From positions 1-45,308 of the IMG/VR virus record IMGVR_UViG_3300027734_000117: DNA of 45,308 bases. One strand, 5' to 3'. Source of the DNA: a virus. Every line of letters begins with the position of its first letter. The first letter of the stretch is position 1. Positions 1,003 through 13,286 of the stretch are shown here, one piece after another. The notes beneath the pieces are model-generated. The model did no database searches, was not told the DNA's origin, and saw only the letters and a list, made by a program, of their open reading frames with translations. The position numbers and the translations under genes were made by a program.

Positions 1003-3414
1003 ATGTCAACAGTAAGAATTCAAGTACGTAGAGGTTTATCTTCAGAATGGACCGCAGCAAATCCAGTATTGGCTGCAGGTGAAATGGGTGTTGAAACAAA
1101 CACAAACAAATTTAAATTTGGTAATGGAACAGATGCATGGACTGCTCTTTCCTATGCGGCTTCAGATGCTGCAGCAATTGGTGAAATTTCCCAAGATGCT
1201 ATCAATCAAGCACTATCAGTAGGAGCAGGATTAACAAAGACTTATAATGATGGCGCAAATACAATTACTGTAACTGTAGATACAGATGTAGTTTCAACTA
1301 AAACATTTGCTATTGCAGAAGCAACATCAAAAGCAGCCGCAGCACAAGCAGCAGCAGCATCCTATACAGATACTGCAGTTAGTGGAATAAATAACTCACT
1401 TACAGATTATTTAGAGGTTGCAGATAGAGGAGTAGCCAATGGAGTTGCTTCATTAAATAATTTAGGTAAGGTCCCAGAGGCACAATTAAATTTACAATCA
1501 CTTTCAACAAACGTAATTACTAGTGGTAACGTAACAGCAGAAAATGTAACAGTAAATGCTAATTTAATTGTTAATGGTACAACAACAACATTAAATACTC
1601 AAAATGTTTCTATAGAAGATACACTTCTATATATTGCTGAAAATAATAATTCAAGCTCATTAGATTTAGGCTTTGTAGCTGGACATAACACTGGTGTATA
1701 TAACCATACAGGACTAGTAAGAGATGCTTCTGATAATAAATGGAAGCTTTTCAAAGATGTTACAGACGAACCAACAACAACAATAAATTTTGCTCAAGCT
1801 AATTTAGATAATTTAGCATTATTTAACTTAGATTCAAATGCAATTCAGGCAGTTTCAATTACAGCAACTGGAACCGCAGCATTGCCAAATAGTTCAATTA
1901 CAACCGCAAATATTCAAAGCCAAGCAGTTACAGCAGAGAAGCTTGCAACAGATTCAGTTGAAACAGCAAAAATTAAAAATGGTGCCGTTACTGGAGCAAA
2001 ATTAGAAGATATGACAGTTACAGCAGCTAAGCTTGGAGCTTATGCAGTTACTAGCGGTAAAATTGAAGATGGTTCAGTTATTACAGGAAAGCTTGGAGCA
2101 GCATCAGTTACAGAAGATAAAATTGCAACAAATGCAATTACTGAACCTAAAATTGCAGCAGGTGCAGTTGTTGAAACAAAACTTGCATCAGGATCAGTAA
2201 CATTAGCAAAGCTTGCAAGCGCTTCAGTTGATTCATCAAAGCTTGCAGCAGGATCAGTAACTTCTGCTAAAATTGCAGACAATTCAATTGTATTAGCTCA
2301 CATGACAGATAACTCTGTTGGAACTGTTGAAATTGTTGACTCAGCAATTACTGAGGCAAAACTTGCCGCAGCAGCAGTTGGCTCTACTAAAATTGCAACA
2401 GGCGCTGTATCAAATGCACATATTGCAGCGGAAGCAGCAATTGCAACATCAAAGATCTCAGGTCTTGATACAGCACTTGGATTACGGGCCCCACTTGCTT
2501 CACCAACATTTACAGGAACAGTAGTTCTTCCAAGTACAACATCAATTGGAAATGTTTCCTCAACAGAGCTTGGATACGTAGATGGAGTTACATCTCCTAT
2601 ACAGACACAGCTTGCAGCAGGTACAACTGCTCTTGCAAATCACGAAGCAGATACAACAAACATTCACGGAATTTCAGATACTTCACTTCTAGCAACTACA
2701 GCAAATGTTGCTACTGCTAAATCAGAAGCTATTACAGCAGCAGGTACTGCAGCAGATACAAAGGTATCTACAGCAGTGGCAGCACTTACAAAGTCTTCAG
2801 TAGGCCTTGCAAATGTTGATAATACAGCCGATACAGCAAAGCCAGTATCTACAGCACAGGCTACAGCAATAGCAACTGCTAAATCAGAAGCAATTGCATC
2901 TGCAACAGCATCAGTCACAGCAGTTATAAATGGTGCACCAGCAGCATTTGATACACTTAAAGAAATTGCAGATTATATTGCAACAGATCAAAGTGCTGGT
3001 TCAGCATTAACTGCATCAGTTGCAACTAAAGCTCCTCTTGCCTCACCAACATTTACTGGAACAGTAACAGTTGGAGCAGCAGGGATTGTATTCTCTGATG
3101 GAACACAAACACGAGCAGCAGTTCCTTCTATAACAACATTTGCATCATCTTTTGCAGCATCAGCAACACTTGCAGCAGGAGAACAAGATAAATTTGTACC
3201 AGTAGATGGAGCAGTAGTTATTACTCTTCCTGCAACAGGATATTCAACTGGACAGTCAATTGATTTCTACCAGGCTTCAGGCACAGGAGCATCATTTGCT
3301 TCAACAAACTCCGTAGTAGGAACACCAGGACTTAAGTTTAGAACTACAAACTCAGTTGTAACAGCAATGAAAACTTCAAGCGGATGGTTGGTCTTTGGAG
3401 ACCTATCAGCGTAA
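1003..3414 (+). CDS. Long tail fibre / receptor-binding protein with 10-residue repeats
   Basis: 803 residues with SD AGGGGTGG upstream. The N-terminus (VRIQVRRGLSSEWTAANPVL, then GEMGVETNTNKFKFGNGTDAW) is the attachment domain seen at the start of many phage fibres and Mtd-type tropism proteins. Residues about 170-270 resemble the 'LIVNGTTTTLNTQNVSIEDTLLYI' fibre domain of marine and T4-like phages. Residues about 298-477 are 18 tandem 10-residue units. After that come two APLASPTFTGTV collars, a SSTELGYVDGVTSPIQTQL segment and a beta-rich C-terminal domain that probably binds the receptor. It is almost certainly trimeric. No chaperone domain is visible on this fibre. Confidence 0.8.
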   Translation: MSTVRIQVRRGLSSEWTAANPVLAAGEMGVETNTNKFKFGNGTDAWTALSYAASDAAAIGEISQDAINQALSVGAGLTKTYNDGANTITVTVDTDVVSTKTFAIAEATSKAAAAQAAAASYTDTAVSGINNSLTDYLEVADRGVANGVASLNNLGKVPEAQLNLQSLSTNVITSGNVTAENVTVNANLIVNGTTTTLNTQNVSIEDTLLYIAENNNSSSLDLGFVAGHNTGVYNHTGLVRDASDNKWKLFKDVTDEPTTTINFAQANLDNLALFNLDSNAIQAVSITATGTAALPNSSITTANIQSQAVTAEKLATDSVETAKIKNGAVTGAKLEDMTVTAAKLGAYAVTSGKIEDGSVITGKLGAASVTEDKIATNAITEPKIAAGAVVETKLASGSVTLAKLASASVDSSKLAAGSVTSAKIADNSIVLAHMTDNSVGTVEIVDSAITEAKLAAAAVGSTKIATGAVSNAHIAAEAAIATSKISGLDTALGLRAPLASPTFTGTVVLPSTTSIGNVSSTELGYVDGVTSPIQTQLAAGTTALANHEADTTNIHGISDTSLLATTANVATAKSEAITAAGTAADTKVSTAVAALTKSSVGLANVDNTADTAKPVSTAQATAIATAKSEAIASATASVTAVINGAPAAFDTLKEIADYIATDQSAGSALTASVATKAPLASPTFTGTVTVGAAGIVFSDGTQTRAAVPSITTFASSFAASATLAAGEQDKFVPVDGAVVITLPATGYSTGQSIDFYQASGTGASFASTNSVVGTPGLKFRTTNSVVTAMKTSSGWLVFGDLSA
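1894..2433 (+). repeat. Eighteen 30-bp tandem repeats coding 10-residue fibre units
   Basis: Eighteen consecutive 30-base units encode decapeptides of the form (S/A)(V/I)T-x-x-K(L/I)-x-x-x, for example AVTAEKLATD, SVTEDKIATN and AITEAKLAAA. The period is exact, with no indels. DNA is less conserved than the peptide, so the array is old and under protein selection. Such repeats typically form an elongated beta-stranded shaft. Confidence 0.8.
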
Positions 3415-3437: not shown

Positions 3438-4763
3438 ATGTCAAAACAAGCAGGTAGAATGAGCCAAGGAGCTAATGACTTCTTAGCTCCGTATGCTCCA
3501 ACAATTGGTACAGCAACAAATGTAGGCTCAAGTAGAGCTTTCAATAATGGACGGGCAGATGTAACTTTTACAGCTGACTCAAGAAATGCTGCAGATTCAT
3601 TTACTGTTACCTCTTCTCCAGGAAACTTTCTTGGAACTGGGGCATCATCTCCAATTTCAGTTACAGGCCTTCAGTCAGGAGTTGCTTACACATTTACAGT
3701 AACCGCAACAAATGCAGCAGGAACATCAGCTCCATCTGAAGCATCTAATTCTGTTACAGCTACAACTGTACCTCAAGATCCACAAAGTGCAACTGCAACT
3801 GCAGGAATTAATCAAAACACTATTTCTTGGACAGCTCCAAATAATGGTGGATCAGCAATAACAAATTATTATATTGTTGGAAATGATGGAACATCTGGTA
3901 ACACAGCATCTACATCAATAGTAATTGCAGATACTGCTAATACTTCTCAATATTATAATATTTATGCAGATAACGCTAATGGTAGATCAATTGCTTCAGG
4001 TAATACAGCCACTATTACAACTCTAGCACCGTTCTTCCCACCGTTCTTCCCACCGTTCTTCCCACCGAGCTTCTTTGCTCCACCGTTCTTCCCACCGTTC
4101 TTCCCACCGAGCTTCTTTGCTCCACCGTTCTTCCCACCGTTCTTCCCACCGAGCTTCTTTGCTCCACCGAGCTTTTTTGCTCCACCGTTCTTCCCACCGT
4201 TCTTCCCACCGAGCTTCTTTGCCCCACCAAGCTTCTTTGCTCCACCAGGATTCTGGTTTGCCCCACCAAGCTTCTTTGCTCCACCAGGATTTAAGGGCAA
4301 GTGTTTATCACCAGACTCAGTAATATTTACTGCAGATGGATGGGTACAAGCTAAAAATATTAAAGTTGGAGATGCAATATTAACTATTGACGGAAGTCAT
4401 ATTAATCTTGAATCAATAACTTCAAATAAAATTTCTGAATCACTTCCAGAAAATGTTAAATTTACAGATGGTCAAGTTGTTTCTGTTACAGAAAAAACTT
4501 CAACATTAATAGGATTTAATTACAGAGGAAAAGATTACTCAATTACTCAGCCAATATTTGTAAAAACCCCAGAAGGAATTACTTATAAAAATGCTGGAGA
4601 AATTGAAATAGGAGAAATAATCCTACATGTTGATTCTGAAGGATCAGTATCAGAGGTTCCAGTAACTTCAATAGAAAAGGATGAAGCAGAATCAACTGTT
4701 TATGATGTTAGAACATCTCCACAGCCATGGTTTATAGTTAATTCCTTTATAGCAATAGCATAA
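3438..4763 (+). CDS. Fibronectin III / Phe-Pro repeat / Hint-like domain structural protein
   Basis: 441 residues, SD AAAGGAGA. Residues about 20-110 and 113-195 are two fibronectin type III domains (GLQSGVAYTFTVTATNAAG, TISWTAPNNGGSAITNYYIV). Residues 198-288 are a repeat of PFFP and PSFFAP units. Residues 289-441 resemble a Hint (hedgehog/intein) domain: Cys289 in KCLSPDSVIFTADGW, then AKNIKVGDAIL (block A), then SITQPIFVKTPEGI...AGEIEIGEIIL (block B) and VYDVRTSPQPWFIVNSF (block F). The block B His of TxxH is Gln371, and the C-terminal His-Asn is absent (the protein ends FIAIA). Splicing is therefore unlikely, although a Cys289 acyl shift or anchoring role remains possible. It sits between a fibre gene and a strong terminator, and is probably surface-exposed on the virion. 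Confidence 0.7.
   Translation: MSKQAGRMSQGANDFLAPYAPTIGTATNVGSSRAFNNGRADVTFTADSRNAADSFTVTSSPGNFLGTGASSPISVTGLQSGVAYTFTVTATNAAGTSAPSEASNSVTATTVPQDPQSATATAGINQNTISWTAPNNGGSAITNYYIVGNDGTSGNTASTSIVIADTANTSQYYNIYADNANGRSIASGNTATITTLAPFFPPFFPPFFPPSFFAPPFFPPFFPPSFFAPPFFPPFFPPSFFAPPSFFAPPFFPPFFPPSFFAPPSFFAPPGFWFAPPSFFAPPGFKGKCLSPDSVIFTADGWVQAKNIKVGDAILTIDGSHINLESITSNKISESLPENVKFTDGQVVSVTEKTSTLIGFNYRGKDYSITQPIFVKTPEGITYKNAGEIEIGEIILHVDSEGSVSEVPVTSIEKDEAESTVYDVRTSPQPWFIVNSFIAIA
4029..4301 (+). repeat. 12- and 15-bp tandem repeats coding PFFP / PSFFAP units
   Basis: Alternating units of ccgttcttccca (PFFP) and ccgagcttctttgctcca (PSFFAP) are nearly identical at DNA level, and end in PGFWFAP and PGFKG variants just before Cys289 of the Hint-like domain. 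High DNA identity implies recent expansion by slippage or recombination, so copy number is likely to vary between relatives. Confidence 0.85.
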
Positions 4764-4771
4764 ATATCTAT

Positions 4772-4805
4772 AAAAGAGGGGTGGCCTACAAGCTGCCCCT
4801 CTTTT
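4772..4805 (+). terminator. Rho-independent terminator after the fibre block
   Basis: Perfect 10-bp arms AAAAGAGGGG (4772-4781) and CCCCTCTTTT (4796-4805), with a 14-base loop that can pair further. The T-run is part of the 3' arm. It separates the fibre genes from the dioxygenase operon. Confidence 0.85.
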
Positions 4806-4809
4806 GCTA

Positions 4810-4838
4810 TTGTCTTTGTAAATTCAAAATGATACAAT
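4810..4838 (+). promoter_or_regulatory. Leaderless promoter of the dioxygenase operon
   Basis: TTGTCT (4810-4815), a 17-base spacer, then TACAAT (4833-4838) inside GATACAATAA. Only six bases separate the -10 from the ATG at 4845, so transcription would start at or within a base of the start codon. The same GATACAATAA with 17-base spacing appears at 21419-21447. Confidence 0.7.
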
Positions 4839-4844
4839 AAAGGT

Positions 4845-5558
4845 ATGACTACTACAAACAGCCCATATGGATTTTCATCAAAAGAAGAACTTTTCCCAGG
4901 AGTCTGGGTATATAGAGATGTAATTAAAAAAGAATTAAATGTAATAGATAGACTTAACTCAATTGGAGAAGCATCTATCAGAGACAATGAATCAAGATTT
5001 AGTTGGACTTTTGGATTTGTTGGATACAGCGAAAAAAGACCTTCATACAGAGATTGTGAAGATATTAAAGTTGGAGAAATAAATAATCCAACAAATGAAA
5101 CTCAAACGCTAGTTGCTGATTTGTGGTCTGATTTAAAAAAAGTACAAGATGTTGCAGTTCAAGATTATTGTAATAAATACAATGTAAAAATGAATTTTTG
5201 GGAAGTTATGAATTGCATACGATATGGCAAAGGACAGCATTTTCAAGAGCATGCAGATCATGGATTTTCATATAGTGCAACAGTGTCTTTAGTAGCATAT
5301 ATAAATGATGATTATGAAGGCGGTAATTTGTTTTTTCCTAAAATTGGCTTAGACATTAAGCCAAAAGCTGGAGACCTATATATTTTCCCATCTACCTATT
5401 TGTTTTCTCATAGAGCAATGCCAGTAATTGAAGGACAAAAATTTTCTATAGTTACGATGCTTGATTATAATGATCATGCCCACAAACAAGAGTTTTTTGA
5501 AGCAAGAGCCAGATGGGTTGAAGAAGACGCAAAAACTGGCAAAAATTCTTATGCATAA
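4845..5558 (+). CDS. Fe(II)/2-oxoglutarate dioxygenase 1 (prolyl 4-hydroxylase-like)
   Basis: 237 residues, with the double-stranded beta-helix core at about 115-215. The iron ligands are His136, Asp138 (HAD) and distal His189. Lys199, exactly ten residues after His189, is in place to bind the 2-oxoglutarate carboxylate. The segment AYINDDYEGGNLFFP and then PKAGDLYIFPS is the P4H-family core. P4H-like enzymes decarboxylate 2-oxoglutarate and hydroxylate Pro or another side chain. There is no signal peptide, so it acts in the cytoplasm. It is the first gene of a seven-gene run, starts at a leaderless ATG, and overlaps the next gene by 8 bases. The substrate is unknown; flanking fibre proteins are the obvious candidates. 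Confidence 0.85.
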   Translation: MTTTNSPYGFSSKEELFPGVWVYRDVIKKELNVIDRLNSIGEASIRDNESRFSWTFGFVGYSEKRPSYRDCEDIKVGEINNPTNETQTLVADLWSDLKKVQDVAVQDYCNKYNVKMNFWEVMNCIRYGKGQHFQEHADHGFSYSATVSLVAYINDDYEGGNLFFPKIGLDIKPKAGDLYIFPSTYLFSHRAMPVIEGQKFSIVTMLDYNDHAHKQEFFEARARWVEEDAKTGKNSYA

Positions 5559-6264
5559 AATTAAAGCCTATACTATAAGAGAAGGCTACGGAGAAGTTAC
5601 GCCTCTTTCTATTAAAAGAGAGTGGATGGATAATACTTATGATGCACATGCATACAAGTGTTTTCCAGTAGGCCTTACAAATCAATTAGGATGGGGAATA
5701 TCTTTTCCAGAAGATATATCTTTTATATGGGATGGTATTTGCGATAGTACTCCAGATCATGTGAAAATTTTATCTGGAGAAAAATATGCTTATTCTGGAA
5801 GAGCTAATGGAACAATAAGTTTTAATACAGGCTTAATGTTTGTTACAGATGAAAATACAAGTCTTTTATCTATGCCTGTCCCAAATTTATTTTTTGAAGG
5901 TGCTGTTCCATTTACAACTTTAGTAAGTACATCATTTTTCCCTGGGGAATTGCCGTGTGCTTGGATGATAACAAAAGCAAATGAAATTATAACAATTAAA
6001 GCGGGGACTCCAATAATTGCAATATTACCTATAGATCTAGAAGGACTTCAAAACTCAGAAATTAACTTTGAGCCTATGTCATCGGCACCTCAGCAAAAAT
6101 TTGATTCAACTGAATATTCAAATGTTGTTTATAATCTTAATAGATCAGCTACTTGGTCTAATTTTTATAGAGATGCAGTAGATCATTTAAAAAACAGTAT
6201 AGGGAAACATCAAATTAAAGCAATAAGACTAAAGGTAAATAATGAAAACAATACAAGTTTATAA
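5551..6264 (+). CDS. DUF6065-like protein, copy 1
   Basis: 237 residues, starting at ATG 5551, which overlaps the previous stop; the frame is open further upstream, but that part lies inside the dioxygenase gene. It is clearly homologous to the next gene: REWMDNTYDAHAYKCFP, then GWGISFPEDISFIWDG, then MPVPNLFFEG and IITIKAGTPIIAILPI. This layout (REWM, CFP, GW, W-G, then a P-P pair) matches my recollection of DUF6065, a family without known function. The strand-rich pattern could be a cupin-like barrel, but no metal-binding HxH set stands out. It is embedded among dioxygenases, so a partner in the same modification pathway is an inference. Confidence 0.6.
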   Translation: MHKIKAYTIREGYGEVTPLSIKREWMDNTYDAHAYKCFPVGLTNQLGWGISFPEDISFIWDGICDSTPDHVKILSGEKYAYSGRANGTISFNTGLMFVTDENTSLLSMPVPNLFFEGAVPFTTLVSTSFFPGELPCAWMITKANEIITIKAGTPIIAILPIDLEGLQNSEINFEPMSSAPQQKFDSTEYSNVVYNLNRSATWSNFYRDAVDHLKNSIGKHQIKAIRLKVNNENNTSL

Positions 6265-6937
6265 AACAGGCGGTCCAGAAACAATTTTATCCCCACTTGA
6301 AACAGATAGAGAGTGGATGCATGAAAATAAATATGGCTATAATTGTTTTCCAATAACTCTTCCAAACAAAATGGGTTGGGCAATATCTTTTCCAAAAGAT
6401 ATATCTTTTATTTGGCATGGTAGCAATAAGCAAGGTCCCGATGGTGATATAGAAATTTTATCTGGAGAAGAACATTGTTATTTTGAAAGAGGCGGTGGAG
6501 TTATTGGATTTCCCACTAATCTAGTTTTTAAAACAGAAGAAGACTTAAGCATAGTAACAATGCCAGTTCCAAATCAATTTATAGATGGAGCTCAATGTTT
6601 TACATCAATTTTATCAAGTTCATTTTACACTGGAGCACTACATGTAGTTTGGAAAGTAACTTCTCCTAACAAAATTATAACAATAAAGGCTGGCACCCCT
6701 GTTGCAGCCGTATTGCCAATTTCACTAAAAGAGATAAATAATATAAAGGCAGTTATTTCAGAAGAATCAATTTCAGATACGGTTCATGATGGAGATTACG
6801 TTGATGCCATGACCAAATATGGAATGGATAATATGAGAACTTCAGATTGGTATAAAAAAGGAATAGATCATAAAGGTAATATAGTAGGAAAACATGAAAT
6901 AACAAGCTTTAAATTTGAAGTAGAAGAAAGAAAATGA
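6242..6937 (+). CDS. DUF6065-like protein, copy 2
   Basis: 231 residues, SD AAAGG upstream; the start lies 23 bases inside the preceding gene. It is a paralogue of that gene: REWMHENKYGYNCFP, GWAISFPKDISFIWHG, ILSGEEHCYFE, MPVPNQFIDG, IITIKAGTPVAAVLPI. It also has a shared tail in which K-G/S-x-D-H-x-x-N-I-G/V-GKH recurs. The two copies have diverged well beyond recent duplication but keep the same landmarks, so both are probably functional with different specificity. No enzymatic motif is recognised. It may be a sensor, a substrate carrier or an enzyme of a fold I cannot see. Confidence 0.6.
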   Translation: MKTIQVYKTGGPETILSPLETDREWMHENKYGYNCFPITLPNKMGWAISFPKDISFIWHGSNKQGPDGDIEILSGEEHCYFERGGGVIGFPTNLVFKTEEDLSIVTMPVPNQFIDGAQCFTSILSSSFYTGALHVVWKVTSPNKIITIKAGTPVAAVLPISLKEINNIKAVISEESISDTVHDGDYVDAMTKYGMDNMRTSDWYKKGIDHKGNIVGKHEITSFKFEVEERK

Positions 6938-6942
6938 TTATA

Positions 6943-6951
6943 TGGTAAAAT
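6943..6951 (+). promoter_or_regulatory. Possible internal extended -10
   Basis: TGGTAAAAT at 6943-6951 in the 55-base gap before the second dioxygenase. There is no matching -35. The gap also holds the SD AAGAGGAAAT for the ATG at 6993. This may allow internal initiation; evidence is weak. Confidence 0.25.
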
Positions 6952-6992
6952 TAGATAAACAGCACTTTTTATGTATTATGAAGAGGAAATAA

Positions 6993-7667
6993 ATGAAACC
7001 GTCAAATGCTTGGTCACATGAACCACCAAAGTCTATAACTCCATCTGGATTTTTTGGAAACTCAATAGATAACATTGTTGAAATAAAAGATTTTTTAAGT
7101 TTAGATGAACGCAAGCGTCTAATGGACTTTGCTCTGAATAATAAAATTTGGGATATAACTGAAACTCACAGAGATGCAGATGGATTAGTTTTGTATGATC
7201 ACACTGTTTGGGAAGACAGAGTATGCACTTATAATTCTTTAATGGCTTCAGATCCTTCTATATTAGATTTGATTTATAGCATGATTAATAGATTAAAAAT
7301 AGAAGTAGATGCATTTTTTAATGTTGATGCAAAAGAAACTGGACCTGCAATTGTTAGATGGCCCATTGGAGCTCGTCAGGAACCACACGCAGATAAAGAA
7401 TTTCATTCTGGCCCAGAAAAAGGAAGAGCAAATGACTTCCCTTGGTATGACCTAGCTGGACTATTTTATTTTAATGATGATTATGAAGGTGGAGAATTAT
7501 ATTTTCCACAGCATGGAATTGAATTTCAGCCAGTTGCAGGAGCAGCATATTTTTTCCCAGGTGATATGTATTATACACACGGTGTCCGCCCAGTAAAATC
7601 TGGAAATAGATTTACATCGCCATTTTTTTGGACGATAAATAAACATACAGGAGAAAAACAGCCATGA
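6993..7667 (+). CDS. Fe(II)/2-oxoglutarate dioxygenase 2 (prolyl 4-hydroxylase-like)
   Basis: 224 residues, SD AAGAGGAAA. The iron triad is His132, Asp134 (PHAD) and His196 (YTHGV). Arg206, ten residues later, would bind 2-oxoglutarate. The core has YFNDDYEGGELYFP and then PVAGAAYFFPG. The N-terminal third (DFLSLDERKRLMDFAL) is the helical entry segment usual in P4H-like enzymes. It overlaps the next gene by ATGA, so translation is coupled. Sequence outside the motifs differs strongly from the other four copies, which argues for different substrates rather than a simple duplication. Confidence 0.85.
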   Translation: MKPSNAWSHEPPKSITPSGFFGNSIDNIVEIKDFLSLDERKRLMDFALNNKIWDITETHRDADGLVLYDHTVWEDRVCTYNSLMASDPSILDLIYSMINRLKIEVDAFFNVDAKETGPAIVRWPIGARQEPHADKEFHSGPEKGRANDFPWYDLAGLFYFNDDYEGGELYFPQHGIEFQPVAGAAYFFPGDMYYTHGVRPVKSGNRFTSPFFWTINKHTGEKQP

Positions 7668-8515
7668 GTGAATTAAGCTATATAGAACTTTATCCAAAAA
7701 TTGATGTATACAGAAATGTATTAGAAGATCCAGAAGCTTTATATAAAACTATGAATAAATCTGAAAAAACTTCTGAAGGCAAATATTTTTTAAAGACTTG
7801 GGATCCATGGGCACATTTTGGAACTTACACACAAAAAAAAGATATAAGAGAAGTTGCTGATGATGTTTTGTCACATGAAATGTTTATTGAAGAAAAAAAG
7901 TTTGTTGAAGATGTAGAGTCTGCATATAATAAAGTTATTTTAGATTATGTTGAAAGACATAAAATTAACCTTCCAGAAGGGTGGAGATTTAGCGGAGCTT
8001 CATATTCTAAATATAATGCAGGAATAAATAATTTAAATAATAATTTAACAATGCAATATCATACAGATCATATTACATCACAAAGAGATATGCCTGGAGA
8101 TAAATTTTTTATAACCTGTACAATGTATATAAATGATGATTATGATGGTGGAGATATTGAATTTTATATTGATGGGACAATAATTAATCATAAGCCTAAG
8201 CCTGGAGACATATTGGTATTTCCATCTACTCAACCATATTATCATGGTGTTAAAACAATTAACACAAATGAAAAGTTTTTTGTTAGAAACTTTATTATGA
8301 CTCCTCACAATGGAACAGAAGAATGGCTTGCAAACCAAAGAAAATTTGGTGCTTACAGATGGGCAAAAATGGAACAAGAAAGAATAGACAATGAGGATAA
8401 AAGAAATATGCTTTATTTTAATGATGGCGTATTAGTTTCTTACGAAGATCATATTAAAAAACAATTTGGTAGCGAAGAAAAATTACATGACCAGTATCCA
8501 AAGGAGATGATGTAA
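7664..8515 (+). CDS. Fe(II)/2-oxoglutarate dioxygenase 3 (prolyl 4-hydroxylase-like)
   Basis: 283 residues, the longest of the five, SD GGAGAAAAAC. The ligands are His133, Asp135 (HTD) and His194 (YYHGV), with Lys204 at the +10 position. The core has MYINDDYDGGDIEF and PKPGDILVFPST. A C-terminal extension of about 60 charged residues after the barrel (TEEWLANQRKFGAYRWAKME and on) is not shared by copies 2 and 5. It may contact substrate or a partner. The ATG overlaps the upstream stop codon, and the next gene starts one base after its own stop. Confidence 0.85.
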   Translation: MSELSYIELYPKIDVYRNVLEDPEALYKTMNKSEKTSEGKYFLKTWDPWAHFGTYTQKKDIREVADDVLSHEMFIEEKKFVEDVESAYNKVILDYVERHKINLPEGWRFSGASYSKYNAGINNLNNNLTMQYHTDHITSQRDMPGDKFFITCTMYINDDYDGGDIEFYIDGTIINHKPKPGDILVFPSTQPYYHGVKTINTNEKFFVRNFIMTPHNGTEEWLANQRKFGAYRWAKMEQERIDNEDKRNMLYFNDGVLVSYEDHIKKQFGSEEKLHDQYPKEMM

Positions 8516-8516
8516 C

Positions 8517-9269
8517 ATGGAAAGAGATATGATTATAACAAGACATAAGTCAGATATTGTAACTTATGAAAACTTTCTTACTCCAGAAGAATGCAAATCT
8601 GTAATTGAAGTTTTAGCAATTAAAATGGAAAAAGAAGAATTAAAATGGATGCCAATTTCTTTTTATGAGTCTTATTCTTCTGGTATGCCAGAAGTAAATG
8701 ACCCAGATACAATTGCATGCGGATTACCAGGAGATTTTTTTCAAGTATTGAGACAGCGAGTCATTGATGCAACAGCAGATATGGCAGGTAAAAATCCTGA
8801 GCAGATGTCGCAAATAAGCTGGCACTCTCAAAGATGGGCACCTGGAGCATTTGCTAATATGCACTCAGATAATACAGACAATGAAGGAAAATCTGGTGCA
8901 TTTACTAGAAGTAGATATGCAACATTTATTTATTTAAATGATGACTTTGAAGATGGCATATTAAACTTTAAACATGGTCTCACCATTGTGCCAAAAACTG
9001 GGTTAATGGCAACATTTGCTGGTGGATTTGAAAATACTCATGAAGTTACAACAGTCAAGAAAAATATTAGATATACGCTGGGATCTTTTTGGGATGATAG
9101 AGAAGAGTCAGATTATCCACAACAAATAAGAGATGCTTGGGCCACAGAGCTTGCAGAAGTTAGAGCTCATCAAAAAATAGAAGCTGTTGAGTGGGAAGAA
9201 ATTCGTAATAAAGGATTAAGAATAACTAATGCTGGAGAAACTTATCCAGCTTCAGAAGTGGAGAACTAG
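8517..9269 (+). CDS. Fe(II)/2-oxoglutarate dioxygenase 4 (prolyl 4-hydroxylase-like)
   Basis: 250 residues, SD AAAGGAGATG. The ligands are His116, Asp118 (HSD) and His175 (THEV), with Arg185 at +10. The core here is divergent: IYLNDDFEDGILNF replaces the NDDYEGG of the others, followed by PKTGLMATFAGG. The N-terminal ENFLTPEECKSVIEVL segment is the usual P4H lead-in. A charged C-terminal tail (about 50 residues) follows the barrel. The complete catalytic set suggests an active enzyme. The loop difference marks it as the most distant of the five and may reflect a different target. Confidence 0.82.
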   Translation: MERDMIITRHKSDIVTYENFLTPEECKSVIEVLAIKMEKEELKWMPISFYESYSSGMPEVNDPDTIACGLPGDFFQVLRQRVIDATADMAGKNPEQMSQISWHSQRWAPGAFANMHSDNTDNEGKSGAFTRSRYATFIYLNDDFEDGILNFKHGLTIVPKTGLMATFAGGFENTHEVTTVKKNIRYTLGSFWDDREESDYPQQIRDAWATELAEVRAHQKIEAVEWEEIRNKGLRITNAGETYPASEVEN

Positions 9270-9270
9270 T

Positions 9271-9921
9271 ATGGAAAATAATATTGAATTTAAACAATTT
9301 CAAATGTTTGACCTAAAACCACTTTCAAATGATATCTGGTATTGGGAAAATGTACTAAGTTTTCCAGAAGACCTAAAAAAATTTATTGATACTATAGATG
9401 ATGAACCAGAATCTTATTCAAGAATATCAAAATGGGAAAATTGGACGGCAAGCAATGATAGTAGTCTTGTATATGGCAAAACAAAAGTTATCAACAAAGA
9501 TAATTTAAAAATTTCTACTGGGTCAGACTCTATAGATAAAAGAACATTATACATTGCTAATAGTATTTTAATGGCATTTGAAATGTGCACAGAAAGATAT
9601 TTAGCTATACGTAATTTAGATAAAAATAATTATAATTTAAATCTTGATAGAATTACTATTAAAGCATGGAATGAAGGACAGTCCATGGGCCCACATTTTG
9701 ATGGTCAAGATGGAAATAAAGATTTGGCATTTTCTTTGGTTGCATATATTAATGATGACTATGAAGGCGGAGAAATTAGCTTTCCAAATCATAATATTAC
9801 TATTAAGCCAAAGGCTGGAAGTTTAATAATGTTCCCATCGCAAGAGCCATATATTCATGAAGTAAAACCAATTACATCTGGTACTAGATATATGAGCCCT
9901 GCACACGTATATATTAAGTAG
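9271..9921 (+). CDS. Fe(II)/2-oxoglutarate dioxygenase 5 (prolyl 4-hydroxylase-like)
   Basis: 216 residues. I place the start at ATG 9271, directly after the upstream stop and 7 bases behind GGAG; the frame is open to 9229, but that would overlap the previous gene without an SD. The ligands are His142, Asp144 (HFD) and His196 (IHEV), with Arg206 at +10. The core has AYINDDYEGGEISFP and PKAGSLIMFPS, very close to copy 1, so 1 and 5 are the nearest pair. It is the last gene of the operon. The collagen-like fibre gene starts 21 bases later from its own promoter. Confidence 0.85.
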   Translation: MENNIEFKQFQMFDLKPLSNDIWYWENVLSFPEDLKKFIDTIDDEPESYSRISKWENWTASNDSSLVYGKTKVINKDNLKISTGSDSIDKRTLYIANSILMAFEMCTERYLAIRNLDKNNYNLNLDRITIKAWNEGQSMGPHFDGQDGNKDLAFSLVAYINDDYEGGEISFPNHNITIKPKAGSLIMFPSQEPYIHEVKPITSGTRYMSPAHVYIK

Positions 9922-9926
9922 ATCGG

Positions 9927-9935
9927 TGGTATAAT
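9927..9935 (+). promoter_or_regulatory. Leaderless extended -10 promoter of the collagen-like fibre
   Basis: TGGTATAAT at 9927-9935 is a perfect extended -10. The ATG at 9942 is six bases further on, the same gap as at 4845, 34510 and 44600. There is no SD, which fits a leaderless mRNA. Confidence 0.65.
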
Positions 9936-9941
9936 AAAAAA

Positions 9942-11057
9942 ATGACTAACACAGGTATAAATAACTGGCGTTTCCCAGACTATACAGACACCCCAGACGT
10001 CCCCAGAGACCTTGGAAACCTTGGTACTGACATAGCCGCATACATAGCCTCTCATCCAGGCCCACAGGGTCCTTCAGGCACCTTATCCGTAGGTACTGTA
10101 ACTACTGTTAGCGCATCTACTCCAGCATCAGTTGTTAATGTTGGGACATCTTCTAATGCTATATTAAACTTAACATTACCTAGAGGAATAGATGGAATTA
10201 TTGGTGGCCCAGGCCCATCAAATGTTTTAGAGATTGGCACCGTTACTAGTGGAGTTACTCCAAATGCTACCATAACTGGAACAAGCCCAACACAAACATT
10301 AAATTTAGTTTTACCACAAGGTCCTCAAGGAGTGCAGGGTCCGCAGGGTCCGCAAGGCCCAACAACAGTAGCCGTTGGAACTACAACAACAGGTGCTGCT
10401 GGAACAAATGCTTCAGTAACAAATACTGGAACAGCAACAAATGCTGTGTTTGCATTTACAATTCCAAGAGGCGCAACTGGAGCAACTGGCGCACAGGGAA
10501 TACAAGGCATACCTGGTTCTAGCGCAACAATTGATCCAATTCCAACTACAATAAGTTTAAATATACCAATTTCATCTGGCTATGGAGTAAACTCTAATTG
10601 GTATCCATTTGCAAACAATTTGTATTCAATTGGTCAGCCAATTGATGCTGGCTCAGGAGTTACATCAAACAGATTTTGGAAAACAATATATTCTAACACT
10701 GGAACTATAAATACTTCTGATCAAAGATTAAAAACGGATGTATCTGTATCTACACTCGGCCTTAATTTTATAAATGATTTAAATCCAGTAAGCTATAAGT
10801 TTATTGAAGGTGGCAAAGAAATAGTTGACGGCGATCTAGTTTCTATTCCTGGATCAAGAACTCATTATGGACTTATTGCACAAGAAGTAAAAGAAGTTTT
10901 AGACGCATCTGGAGTATCTGACTTTGCTGGTTGGGTAAAGATGGACATGTCAGTAGAAGATTCAATGCAAGGACTTAGATATGATCAGTTTATTGCTCCA
11001 CTTATTAAAGCAGTACAAGAGCTTACAGCGAGAGTTAAAGCCCTAGAAGAGCAGTAA
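9942..11057 (+). CDS. Collagen-like tail fibre with C-terminal S74 chaperone domain
   Basis: 371 residues. Residues about 40-195 hold four short collagen-like Gly-X-Y runs (GPQGPSG, GIDGIIGGPGPS, GPQGVQGPQGPQGP, GATGATGAQGIQGIPG). They are separated by three related beta modules of the form VGTVTT...NLTLPRG. A linker follows at 200-254. Residues 255-371 are a peptidase S74 (endosialidase-type intramolecular chaperone) domain. Ser259 and Lys264 in TSDQRLK form the self-cleavage dyad, and LIAQEVKEVL and YDQFIAPLIKAVQEL are typical. The domain drives trimerisation and is then cut off before Ser259. It sits directly downstream of the hydroxylase operon and is a plausible substrate, although most of its prolines occupy X rather than Y positions. 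Confidence 0.85.
   Translation: MTNTGINNWRFPDYTDTPDVPRDLGNLGTDIAAYIASHPGPQGPSGTLSVGTVTTVSASTPASVVNVGTSSNAILNLTLPRGIDGIIGGPGPSNVLEIGTVTSGVTPNATITGTSPTQTLNLVLPQGPQGVQGPQGPQGPTTVAVGTTTTGAAGTNASVTNTGTATNAVFAFTIPRGATGATGAQGIQGIPGSSATIDPIPTTISLNIPISSGYGVNSNWYPFANNLYSIGQPIDAGSGVTSNRFWKTIYSNTGTINTSDQRLKTDVSVSTLGLNFINDLNPVSYKFIEGGKEIVDGDLVSIPGSRTHYGLIAQEVKEVLDASGVSDFAGWVKMDMSVEDSMQGLRYDQFIAPLIKAVQELTARVKALEEQ
10059..10518 (+). repeat. Collagen-like Gly-X-Y runs in a threefold module repeat
   Basis: Gly-X-Y tracts at 10059-10079, 10180-10221, 10318-10362 and 10471-10518 alternate with three copies of a module of about 45 residues (VGTVTT, ASVVNVGT, ATNAVFAFTIPRG type). DNA identity between modules is modest, so the duplications are old. 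Confidence 0.7.
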
Positions 11058-11060
11058 GAC

Positions 11061-12866
11061 ATGTCATATAAATATACTGTCTTAAAAGATAATCCACTTT
11101 CATTTTTTTTACTAGATGAAGTTCGTTCTGGTGCTGCTGGCGTATACAGTAATTTAACATCATTATTTTCAACATACGCAGATTTAAGAGATAATGGGAT
11201 TTCATATGCAGCAGTAAGTGGTCTGCCAATAAAAGATTATTCTGGTAATGCAATGGAAGGATATGCAATTGATGCTTCTGCCATGGAAGTATTGCCCATA
11301 GTTGGAGCGGGTATTAGAGGAACAGAAATTAATGAAAATATAGACCTGTCTTTAAAAGCTTTAGGAATTGCTACTTCTAAAAATCCAGATAGCCCATTTG
11401 CATTTGAGATATGGTTTAGCCCAGATATATCTGATTCAGAAGAATATTTAATACTTGGAGACGCAACAAATAAAATAGGACTATTTTATAATAATGAAAA
11501 TGTAATATTTAAATGTACAGAACAAGAAAAAATATTTTACAAAGTAACTAAAAATCAAGTTATGCATATAGTAGGTACATTTTCTAAAGACAAAATTTCA
11601 TTATACATAAATGGAGTCCTTGTTTCTGAAAAATTAATCACTTCAGGATTTAAATTTATCAATGAGTCACTTGCAATAAAAATTGGTCCAGCTAATACTG
11701 GTAAAAAATTTATAGTAGATTCTGCAGCAATTTATAATTATGAAATTGAAAATACAAAAATTTTATCTCATTATATGGTTGGATATAAAGAAACAAAATA
11801 CTCACAAATTGTTTATTCTAAAGATGGCACATTATTCTCATTAAATTCTGTGTTTATAAAACCAGATGTATCCTACAGATATCCTGGATTAAAATCTTTA
11901 GATTCTATAGTTTCGGGAGATGCATACTATAATCCAACCTATAAAAGAATAGAGTTTGCACAAACAATATTACCAGAAACAAAAACTTTTATATTTGAAG
12001 AAAGGCTTTATGTTCCTAATCCAGAAACAATTGTTTCTTCTAGAATATCTTATGGCCAAGATGTAGAAAATATATTAGTAGAAGCTAAAGTTCCAGGACA
12101 AGAATGGAAGGCATGCAAAAATAATTCTGTTTTACCATACTACAACAAAAATGAAAATTTAATTGGGCCAATATTAGATATTCGTGTGACAATGACGACG
12201 CTTGATTCTTCTTCTGATTTGCCTTATTTTGATAAGCTAGAAATTGATTTATATTCTAACAAAGACTTTTATTCTGACAGTGGTGGAGGAAAAGTATATT
12301 CGGACTATGACTATTCACTTGGATATTACAATTACCCAGTAAGAATGCAAAATAAATATAATGGTCTTTCCATGATTTCAGGACATGGATTCTCTGTAGA
12401 TCTTGCAATACAGCCAAGAACCATTGAAATGTTTTTTACCCCAAGAGAAGGAAAAAATGTTTTATTCTCATCAAATGCTGCATCCTTTAAATGGACTAAT
12501 GCGGGGGCAATAACAAAAAATGGAATTAGCGCAATATACGTTAATGGTATAAATAGAACTGCATCTACAAATATATCTGAATTCCTTTTAAGTGGAGTTT
12601 CACACCATATACTAATAGTCTTAAGCGCAGTTGCTACAAGCATTAAATTTAATCAGAGTCAAAACGGATCAGAATATGGTGGATCTAATACCTATAGCAA
12701 TTTAGCATTCTATGAGACTCCATTTACCGCTTCACAAGCCTTAAAGAATTATAATCTATATTGCTCAGATAATTCATTTACAGTGCAGGACCCAGGTATA
12801 AATTTTTCAGAAAGTGCTAATGGTCAAGACAATACAGCCTACTTCATCAGATCTTTTGACGTATAG
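11061..12866 (+). CDS. LamG/concanavalin-like virion protein
   Basis: 601 residues, starting at ATG 11061, three bases after the previous stop. Residues about 85-240 look like a laminin-G/concanavalin A jelly roll: FAFEIWFSPDISDSEEYLIL, VMHIVGTFSKDKISLYINGV and FIVDSAAIYNYEI. A second, shorter one seems present at about 450-570 (RTIEMFFTPREG, ISAIYVNGINR, SNLAFYETPFT). Such domains bind carbohydrate or make protein contacts in phage tails and baseplates. No catalytic residues are recognised. It is transcribed with the collagen-like fibre and followed by an AT-rich gap with a 7-bp hairpin (12870-12890) lacking a T-run. Adhesin or fibre-connecting protein is the best guess. Confidence 0.65.
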   Translation: MSYKYTVLKDNPLSFFLLDEVRSGAAGVYSNLTSLFSTYADLRDNGISYAAVSGLPIKDYSGNAMEGYAIDASAMEVLPIVGAGIRGTEINENIDLSLKALGIATSKNPDSPFAFEIWFSPDISDSEEYLILGDATNKIGLFYNNENVIFKCTEQEKIFYKVTKNQVMHIVGTFSKDKISLYINGVLVSEKLITSGFKFINESLAIKIGPANTGKKFIVDSAAIYNYEIENTKILSHYMVGYKETKYSQIVYSKDGTLFSLNSVFIKPDVSYRYPGLKSLDSIVSGDAYYNPTYKRIEFAQTILPETKTFIFEERLYVPNPETIVSSRISYGQDVENILVEAKVPGQEWKACKNNSVLPYYNKNENLIGPILDIRVTMTTLDSSSDLPYFDKLEIDLYSNKDFYSDSGGGKVYSDYDYSLGYYNYPVRMQNKYNGLSMISGHGFSVDLAIQPRTIEMFFTPREGKNVLFSSNAASFKWTNAGAITKNGISAIYVNGINRTASTNISEFLLSGVSHHILIVLSAVATSIKFNQSQNGSEYGGSNTYSNLAFYETPFTASQALKNYNLYCSDNSFTVQDPGINFSESANGQDNTAYFIRSFDV

Positions 12867-12947: not shown

Positions 12948-13286
12948 ATGGAAATCTTAAATCAAAAAAGCCAAATTATTGAAGAGACACGCCTAGGCAT
13001 ATACGTATGGGAAATGCCAGATGGCCGATGGATCGGTGACGATGATGGCAATTTTCTTTCTATAACATCTACAAAAGGCAACAGATCTAAAATTGCCGCA
13101 CTTGCAGATGCTGTTAGACATTATGGCATTAGCGAAGGCCAACCTAAATTTCTTTCAGGTAAAAGAAAAATTGATGATGAAGAATTTGAACATCAAAACC
13201 AAAGACTTAAATGGGGACTTACTCCAGATCCACTTGATATTGGAGAATATAAAGACTCAGTCTTAAGAGGGGGAGCAGTAAAATGA
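12948..13286 (+). CDS. Conserved-looking unknown protein upstream of portal
   Basis: 112 residues with no family I recognise. The sequence is soluble and charged (YVWEMPDGRWIGDDDGNFL, then SKIAALADAVRHYGI, then KWGLTPDPLDIGEYKDSVL). 'WEMPDGRWIGDDDGNFL' reads like a small beta-hairpin domain. It overlaps the portal start by ATGA, so expression is coupled to the portal, and a role in head morphogenesis or packaging is likely. Its start appears to be leaderless. Confidence 0.6.
   Translation: MEILNQKSQIIEETRLGIYVWEMPDGRWIGDDDGNFLSITSTKGNRSKIAALADAVRHYGISEGQPKFLSGKRKIDDEEFEHQNQRLKWGLTPDPLDIGEYKDSVLRGGAVK

Follow-up and report, generated by a model that had tools for sequence, protein, structure and literature searches.

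Prolyl-hydroxylase-like oxygenase genes recur beside a Pro/Phe-repeat tail protein gene in uncultured freshwater phages

Introduction

Prolyl hydroxylases encoded by viruses are already known (PMC7019647, PMC12774648 and PMC2984593), and one survey (PMC9301287) states that the viral use of prolyl 4-hydroxylase (P4H) "remains cryptic". Collagen-like proteins near a tail fibre are mentioned in the accessible text of PMC10202952, in which, as in that of PMC6802176, the word oxygenase is absent. Searches of the open literature, judged by title and abstract, brought up no paper that links a set of oxygenase genes to a Pro/Phe repeat of a tail protein. Here we analyse the 45,308-base virus record IMGVR_UViG_3300027734_000117, the whole of which is called the window below. 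On one strand, positions 3438 to 9921 encode in succession a tail protein with a Pro/Phe repeat (H), a first 2-oxoglutarate (2OG)- and Fe(II)-dependent oxygenase (ox1), two DUF6065 proteins and four further oxygenases (ox2 to ox5); the open reading frames (ORFs) are mechanical calls.

The oxygenases and the repeat are found together in metagenomic phage contigs whichever of the two is searched first. We propose, with a probability of roughly 60%, that the phage uses this block as a tailoring cassette for one structural protein, with enzymes that hydroxylate prolines in the Pro/Phe repeat of H.

Results

The five oxygenase ORFs all lie on the plus strand: ox1 (4845 to 5558), ox2 (6993 to 7667), ox3 (7664 to 8515), ox4 (8517 to 9269) and ox5 (9229 to 9921, possibly starting instead at the in-frame ATG 9271). 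Each exceeds the cut-off of the Pfam family PF13640 (2OG-FeII_Oxy_3), with E-values of 2e-13, 2e-7, 2.4e-8, 1.6e-6 and 8.8e-13, respectively, and all five match phrog_61 (PHROG 61). Their divergence is marked, the identity of ox2 to ox5 to ox1 being 20-29% in the alignment. An HxD motif, a distal His and a Lys or Arg ten residues after this His were read from the alignment in 5/5 enzymes, and a pattern for this signature matched 768 of 801 distinct relatives versus 58 of 801 sequences shuffled once. The basic residue at His+10 has its role in 2OG binding. Searched against the PDB, a profile of the five oxygenases matched a prolyl 4-hydroxylase (3itq, E 8e-11) and prolyl 3-hydroxylase 1 (8k0e, E 6e-10), with further matches to PiuC, EGLN1, P4H alpha-2 and lysyl hydroxylases. 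Judged by the iron ligands, the basic residue and the profile match, the oxygenases are of the prolyl-hydroxylase type of the 2OG-Fe(II) superfamily, and family knowledge suggests that they would hydroxylate prolyl residues of peptides in a reaction dependent on Fe(II), O2 and 2OG. The initial annotation, made from the letters of the window, had described five divergent Fe(II)/2OG enzymes with this signature, which the ORFs and the alignment confirm; it had also called them adjacent, which is not strictly correct, as the two DUF6065 genes separate the first enzyme from the second.

The association with the repeat was examined in both directions. All tallies are of loci, some of which come from the same contig; oxygenases in loci and stretches were counted with our own iterated oxygenase profile rather than that of Pfam, and those in whole records with PF13640. 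A first repeat-first scan, with the pattern FF[AS]PPxFF[AS]PP, gave at least 120 stretches, 116 of them with an in-frame ORF and 84 of these at least 6 kb long. A second, with FFPPFFPP, also gave at least 120 stretches, from which 110 new ones were examined (96 with an in-frame ORF, 68 of at least 6 kb). The control was a collagen-first scan with GPxGPxGPQGP (at least 120 stretches, 118 in frame, 91 of at least 6 kb). Among the matches listed, the stretches of at least 6 kb contained an oxygenase in 76/84 cases for the first pattern (mean 3.57) and in 54/68 for the second (mean 3.7), and DUF6065 in 65/84 and 44/68, respectively; the corresponding figures for the collagen-like control were 4/91 and 0/91. 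Analysis of whole records extended this result: for the 45 repeat stretches in which no enzyme lay close by, the full records were searched, and PF13640 was present in 33 (31 over the cut-off). Among records that bear the repeat and reach 40 kb, it exceeded the cut-off in 49/49, the copy number ranging from 1 to 15; these 49 had been hand-picked from the rows listed, and two long misses (36.8 and 38.4 kb) lie just under the 40 kb line. In the collagen whole-record control (the first 50 of 120 loci), PF13640 was found in 6/50, five of them over the cut-off, and in 4/18 of the records of at least 40 kb.

In the enzyme-first direction, loci were collected with ox5, ox2 and DUF6065 and were eligible when at least 2.5 kb lay upstream of the first oxygenase, which left out 34/78, 36/80 and 37/80 loci, respectively. 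A P/F-rich ORF was present in 44/44, 44/44 and 42/43 of the eligible loci (the three sets overlap and hold 52 distinct first enzymes) and in 0/120 collagen-control loci. It lies a median of 86 bases upstream of the first oxygenase, at a distance of 300 bases or less in 41/44, 37/44 and 29/42 cases. The single miss, L626 in the DUF6065 set, is a 6.8 kb contig, and 7, 13 and 19 of the loci left out for their short upstream part still showed a P/F-rich ORF. The initial annotation had named two checks, a search of metagenomic phage contigs for enzyme clusters together with the repeats and a search for clusters devoid of a Pro-rich or collagen-like neighbour: the co-occurrence holds for the Pro/Phe repeat, and the Pro/Phe protein, which accompanies the cluster in the eligible loci as counted above, also withstands the second check. 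The collagen-like fibre does not withstand it, 17/71 enzyme-bearing portal loci being devoid of a collagen-like run. As the association is tight in both search directions and low in the collagen control, a P4H-like action on a Pro-rich tail protein is supported.

The composition of the block is itself conserved. The order F-H-1-D-(D)-2-3-4-5-(C)-L, where F is the fibre at 1003, D DUF6065, C the collagen-like fibre and L LamG, is found repeatedly in the relatives collected by portal or ox5. When the enzymes are sorted by similarity, both an ox1-type and an ox2-type member are present in 146/146 loci that combine the repeat with four or more oxygenases; ox4 occurs in about 90% of these loci, some of which are cut by contig ends, with ox5 reaching 73% and ox3 70%. 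A genome collection of cellular organisms provided 24 stretches with the repeat, 0/24 of which had an oxygenase match (own profile, within the stretch); these cellular stretches, which by eye look like low-complexity or antisense reading, were set aside.

To place the block in its phage background, we used the portal gene at 13283 (assigned by match), which follows ox5, the fibre at 9942 and a LamG-domain protein at 11061. The window portal is 55-59% identical over 94-99% of its length to Streptomyces phages (15 rows listed). BillNye and StarPlatinum, Streptomyces phages of the Stanwilliamsviridae, carry homologues of the window genes over the span between the LamG-like protein and the tape measure, both included, with gene order preserved, a likeness that concerns the portal plus the surrounding gene order; H, ox1, ox2, DUF6065 copy 1 and the collagen-like fibre gave no tblastn match (E 1e-4) in the 29/33 kb stretches of these two phages. 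The portal identity and the shared gene order make a host among the Actinomycetota likely, and the phages that bear the cassette are uncultured freshwater phages.

Among the 82 portal loci whose upstream part was long enough, enzymes and repeat are both present in 69 and both absent in 11; two have enzymes alone and none the repeat alone, and each of the 71 enzyme-bearing loci has 5 to 8 oxygenases (own profile). Both exceptions lie at an edge. L042 is a whole contig on which a sulfotransferase-like and an Asp-hydroxylase-like gene come first, just upstream of ox1, so that the place of the repeat gene lies off its end. The edge of the locus truncates L038, for which a longer locus of the same contig (L605) shows P/F-rich ORFs. 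Conversely, the repeat-free portal relatives were without the enzyme cluster in 11/11 cases, and 16 repeat-free relatives taken as whole records had PF13640 in 6/16, in one or two copies. A tree of 55 distinct portals shows two changes in the state of the enzyme cluster, each of them together with the repeat. Furthermore, 18 of the 49 long records show no match to the window portal, including records of 98 to 205 kb, and an oxygenase shares the stretch with the repeat in 14 of these 18. As 14/18 such records keep the pairing, it seems to extend beyond one portal lineage, although a portal may be missing from a fragment for trivial reasons.

This behaviour as one block on the portal tree would also be expected if the enzymes acted on a host protein (a translation factor, for example), on nucleotides or DNA, or on another virion protein, their adjacency to H resulting from block exchange in the tail region. 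Cyanophages often encode 2OG oxygenases of this superfamily, and their P4H-domain proteins are suggested to be repair enzymes in the accessible text of PMC2984593, and the predicted dUTPase fold of DUF6065, described below, hints at nucleotides. The pairing is nevertheless near complete in both directions and over many sequences, including records without a match to the window portal, and most of the nearest solved relatives of the oxygenases are peptide hydroxylases that act on prolyl or lysyl residues, so that we hold such other targets to be rather unlikely.

Several observations weigh against hydroxylation of the repeat. First, 12 of the 45 enzyme-free repeat stretches have no PF13640 in the whole record; ten of these records are shorter than 20 kb and two are the records of 36.8 and 38.4 kb (L284 and L365), in which the FFPP repeat stands, by eye, in a different protein context. 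Some long repeat-bearing records (G028, G117) have a single PF13640 gene. Secondly, 211 of 231 repeat-bearing stretches form one network of related phages linked by shared genes, and the loci are therefore not independent. The portal tree offers four independent pairs differing in the repeat, in which the enzymes differ in the same way in two, in the opposite way in none and are unchanged in two, with L038 and L042, the two edge cases above, entered as repeat-free rows that have enzymes; this is too few for significance, and neighbouring genes can move jointly without acting jointly. Thirdly, the P4H of the virus PBCV-1 is active on peptides, yet no hydroxyproline was found in virions, according to the accessible text of PMC7019647. 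Lastly, the idea that enzyme subtype tracks repeat subtype was tried and dropped: the raw correlations of ox3 and ox5 with PPGFF and PPSFF (0.42-0.57), and a table of 103 loci in which ox3 and the repeat subtype were both present in 59, both absent in 32 and apart in 6 and 6 (59, 28, and 10 and 6 for ox5), carry little weight once placed on an ox2 tree, where there were four independent pairs only and a median p of 1.

We then considered the fibre encoded directly after ox5 (9942 to 11057, plus strand), which ends in a Peptidase_S74 domain. The initial annotation had placed a Gly-Pro-Gln collagen-like fibre here; the fibre is present but is weakly collagen-like, with a Pfam Collagen E-value of 0.092, below the cut-off. 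The enzymes could hydroxylate this neighbour as animal P4H does collagen, and its position directly 3' of the cassette in most close relatives, together with a GXY run of at least 20 residues in 54/71 enzyme-bearing portal loci, agrees with such a role. On the other hand, 17/71 enzyme-bearing portal loci have no collagen-like run (at least five triplets), and runs of at least 60 residues are found in 8/11 enzyme-free portal relatives versus 3/71 enzyme-bearing ones. Pro occupies the X position of the GXY triplets of the window fibre six times and the Y position once (a GIP triplet), and a substrate of the collagen P4H type, namely GXY with Pro in Y wherever the enzymes are, was not observed. 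Together with the low collagen-first counts (4/91 among the matches listed, and 6/50), these data led us to reject the collagen-like fibre as a favoured substrate and to consider this role very improbable. The earlier proposal that the phage hydroxylates its own adhesins is therefore upheld for the Pro/Phe repeat, by both search directions, and not for the collagen-like fibre, and its accompanying caution, that Pro lies mostly at X and that the FFPP repeat might be the true target, proved apt. In 8/11 enzyme-free portal loci (L043, L046, L050, L051, L054, L057, L072 and L077), collagen-like runs total 351-495 residues, an apparent alternative fibre module.

The H protein (3438 to 4763, plus strand), the proposed substrate, combines an fn3 domain (E 2.8e-9, over the cut-off), the 88-residue Pro/Phe repeat (4029 to 4292, in the same frame as the domains on either side) and a C-terminal Hint (Hedgehog/intein-like) domain with its Cys1 (4302 to 4763). 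It had been annotated as an upstream fibre with PPFFPPFF repeats; the Pro/Phe repeat is indeed there, and the fn3 and Hint domains have to be added. The repeat contains 35 Pro, 35 Phe, 8 Ala, 7 Ser, 2 Gly, 1 Trp and no charged residue, and over 219 distinct repeat regions it is constant in kind, with 33.6% Pro and 32.3% Phe. Phe being as abundant as Pro, and five enzymes exceeding the obvious need of one Pro chemistry, the repeat might be the substrate with Phe or flanking residues as the main target, or with another 2OG reaction taking place on it. The oxygenase profile is nevertheless closest to prolyl 4- and 3-hydroxylases, and no Phe-modifying enzyme was seen among 60 PDB rows of the profile search, which makes a target other than Pro improbable. 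Hydroxylation of Pro, the preferred reading, is the one followed below.

Outside the repeat, the ends of H vary: among the same 219 regions, 94 tails are longer than 90 residues, many of them Hint, and 125 are short, a good part of them Cys-rich. In L163, L151, L356, L369 and others, a short Cys-rich tail replaces Hint, as if the tip were interchangeable. Longer Pro/Phe-repeat proteins (L218:9637-12021, L213:8942-11323 and L223:1-1557) have the same end as the shorter cassette-side ones; in the case of L223, the cassette (L017) lies on the same contig, which suggests that certain genomes encode two repeat proteins. For the window H, the C-terminal 153 residues are predicted to adopt a Hint fold (AlphaFold2 mean pLDDT 94.7), with the Hedgehog autoprocessing domain 6tyy as best solved match (E 1.7e-7); the Pfam matches Intein_splicing (E 1.5e-4) and Hint_2 (E 0.004) are both under the cut-off. 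Cys1 is kept in 52/52 aligned tails, rows that had been selected by a Cys pattern. Splicing inteins have a central His and a C-terminal His-Asn. The tail of H thus resembles Hedgehog autoprocessing domains and inteins in its fold and Cys1, and differs in that the window copy has Gln before Pro in place of the central His and ends in ...NSFIAIA, with no terminal His-Asn, while some relatives have both. Splicing is therefore unlikely and cleavage uncertain; the Hint part of H is probably a self-processing domain, perhaps degenerate in the window copy.

Both DUF6065 genes, copy 1 (5551 to 6264, plus strand, PF19541 E 1.5e-29) and copy 2 (6242 to 6937, plus strand, E 1.8e-25), score well over the Pfam cut-off (103.6 and 90.2 bits for 26.6), in agreement with the two DUF6065-like proteins of the initial annotation. 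A model built from a 58-row alignment (mean pLDDT 91.5) has dUTPases as its best solved matches (Foldseek, 3ecy, E 1.7e-4; VIA, 3lqw, Z 11.7, rmsd 4.9, 126 residues aligned), so that we predict a dUTPase fold for DUF6065. Motif III of dUTPases contains a catalytic Asp. In an hhalign comparison, Thr stands opposite this Asp, in a match that is itself not significant (probability 0.3%, E 0.19). At profile level, no significant match to dUTPases was obtained, a usable frame having come from 4/6 dUTPase loci; sequence searches of the PDB up to E 1 and, with copy 1, of the phage collection at E 1e-5 gave nothing. DUF6065 occurs in 25/398 Pseudomonadota genomes, 23 of them over the cut-off. Our oxygenase profile found no enzyme in 13 bacterial DUF6065 regions, and two of these regions, L557 and L558, which came from weak matches, show no DUF6065 by our profile; the bacterial context consequently gives no function. 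No paper on DUF6065 was found in the open literature.

Further genes accompany the cassette in some lineages, all counted in the 293 loci with at least four oxygenases versus the 120 collagen controls. A second DUF6065-like family (hhalign E 4.3e-6, probability 87%) occurs in 80/293 versus 1/120. Its members (among them L067:4449-5171, L036:2418-3164, L069:4224-4931 and L278:7416-8210) come from 102 loci altogether; several keep an IIDSD stretch, and the one scanned (L278) had no Pfam match. Relatives of Asp/Asn beta-hydroxylases (PF05118) were found in 27/293 versus 0/120; in L042:771-1379 and L686:771-1379 such a gene lies just 5' of ox1 (PF05118 E 1.1e-12). Sulfotransferase relatives (PF03567) were found in 31/293 versus 0/120, and the sulfotransferase-like genes L146:4117-4818 (PF03567 E 2.2e-6) and L042:107-808 (by similarity) lie in the interval that separates the repeat gene from ox1, or immediately 5' of ox1. 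A sulfotransferase next to hydroxylases would fit a decoration of new hydroxyls.

Between H and ox1, a terminator scan located a terminator-like stem-loop of 15 pairs (4771 to 4806, plus strand), one of nine such sites in the region for 4.9 +/- 2.7 expected. It is followed by a promoter-like -35/-10 pair (TTGTCT, 17, TACAAT; 4810 to 4838, plus strand) whose end six bases 5' of the ATG at 4845 fits a leaderless start. The initial annotation had read these signals as an operon with its own leaderless promoter behind a terminator: stem and -35/-10 pair are in place, but promoter-like sites are no commoner than in shuffled sequences (36 found, 43.8 expected), and the leaderless-promoter call thus rests on position. 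Upstream of H, positions 1003 to 3414 encode an 803-residue fibre protein with, by eye, many imperfect GAVT..KLA..SVT-type repeats.

Discussion

Based on these results, the following sequence of events can be envisaged. The operon behind the tail gene would yield five P4H/P3H-like 2OG-Fe(II) oxygenases, which would bind extended Pro-Pro segments of the uncharged H repeat and hydroxylate prolines there. Speculatively, there could be a division of labour, with each enzyme favouring its own Pro or sequence context (PPxFF, FFyPP, FFPPFF), and several enzymes may have been kept because of these preferences. With 70 of 88 residues being Pro or Phe and no charge, the repeat is very hydrophobic, and its composition suggests that hydroxyls would help it by making it soluble and rigid; they could also carry more decoration. 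DUF6065 might serve as a chaperone or have a nucleotide role, both of which are speculative. More tentatively, and as a conjecture that we hold less firmly than the hydroxylation itself, H could represent a kind of adhesin that is built on the Pro/Phe repeat and does not work unmodified: the hydroxylase operon, with DUF6065 as helper, would turn it into a densely hydroxylated, decorated stalk with interchangeable tips (Hint, Cys-rich or short), to which some lineages would add an Asp/Asn hydroxylase and a sulfotransferase.

The pairing suggests a chemical modification of the repeat by the phage and thereby offers a concrete target for prolyl hydroxylases of viruses. Since a short repeated sequence recurs beside the enzymes, the question of the substrate becomes a direct peptide assay, for which PPGFFAPPGFFAPP and FFPPFFPPFFPP are suitable peptides and GPQGPQGPQ a control. 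Should the proposal be correct, phages would produce structural proteins that are hydroxylated, which would bear on host recognition and on the oxygen dependence of infection; proteomics without variable hydroxylation would miss such virion proteins.

Compared with known systems, the window enzymes share with the P4H family, within the PF13640 superfamily, the HxD...H iron site, the basic residue at +10 and a significant match to solved P4H and P3H structures; judging from the genes, they differ in being five divergent copies in one phage operon, paired with a Pro/Phe repeat and not with collagen. The P4H of PBCV-1, a chlorovirus, provides a second likeness, as a viral P4H that is sequence-specific on Pro peptides and whose product, hydroxyproline, was sought in the virus's own virions and not found (PMC7019647); it is a single enzyme of an algal virus, and no linked repeat gene is named in the accessible text. 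Finally, the window's five enzymes belong by their phrog_61 matches with the phage 2OG-Fe(II) oxygenases (PHROG 61; EGLN3-like, PMC12774648), a wide family for which the accessible text of that source gives no substrate, whereas the window holds a multi-enzyme cassette with a recurrent partner gene.

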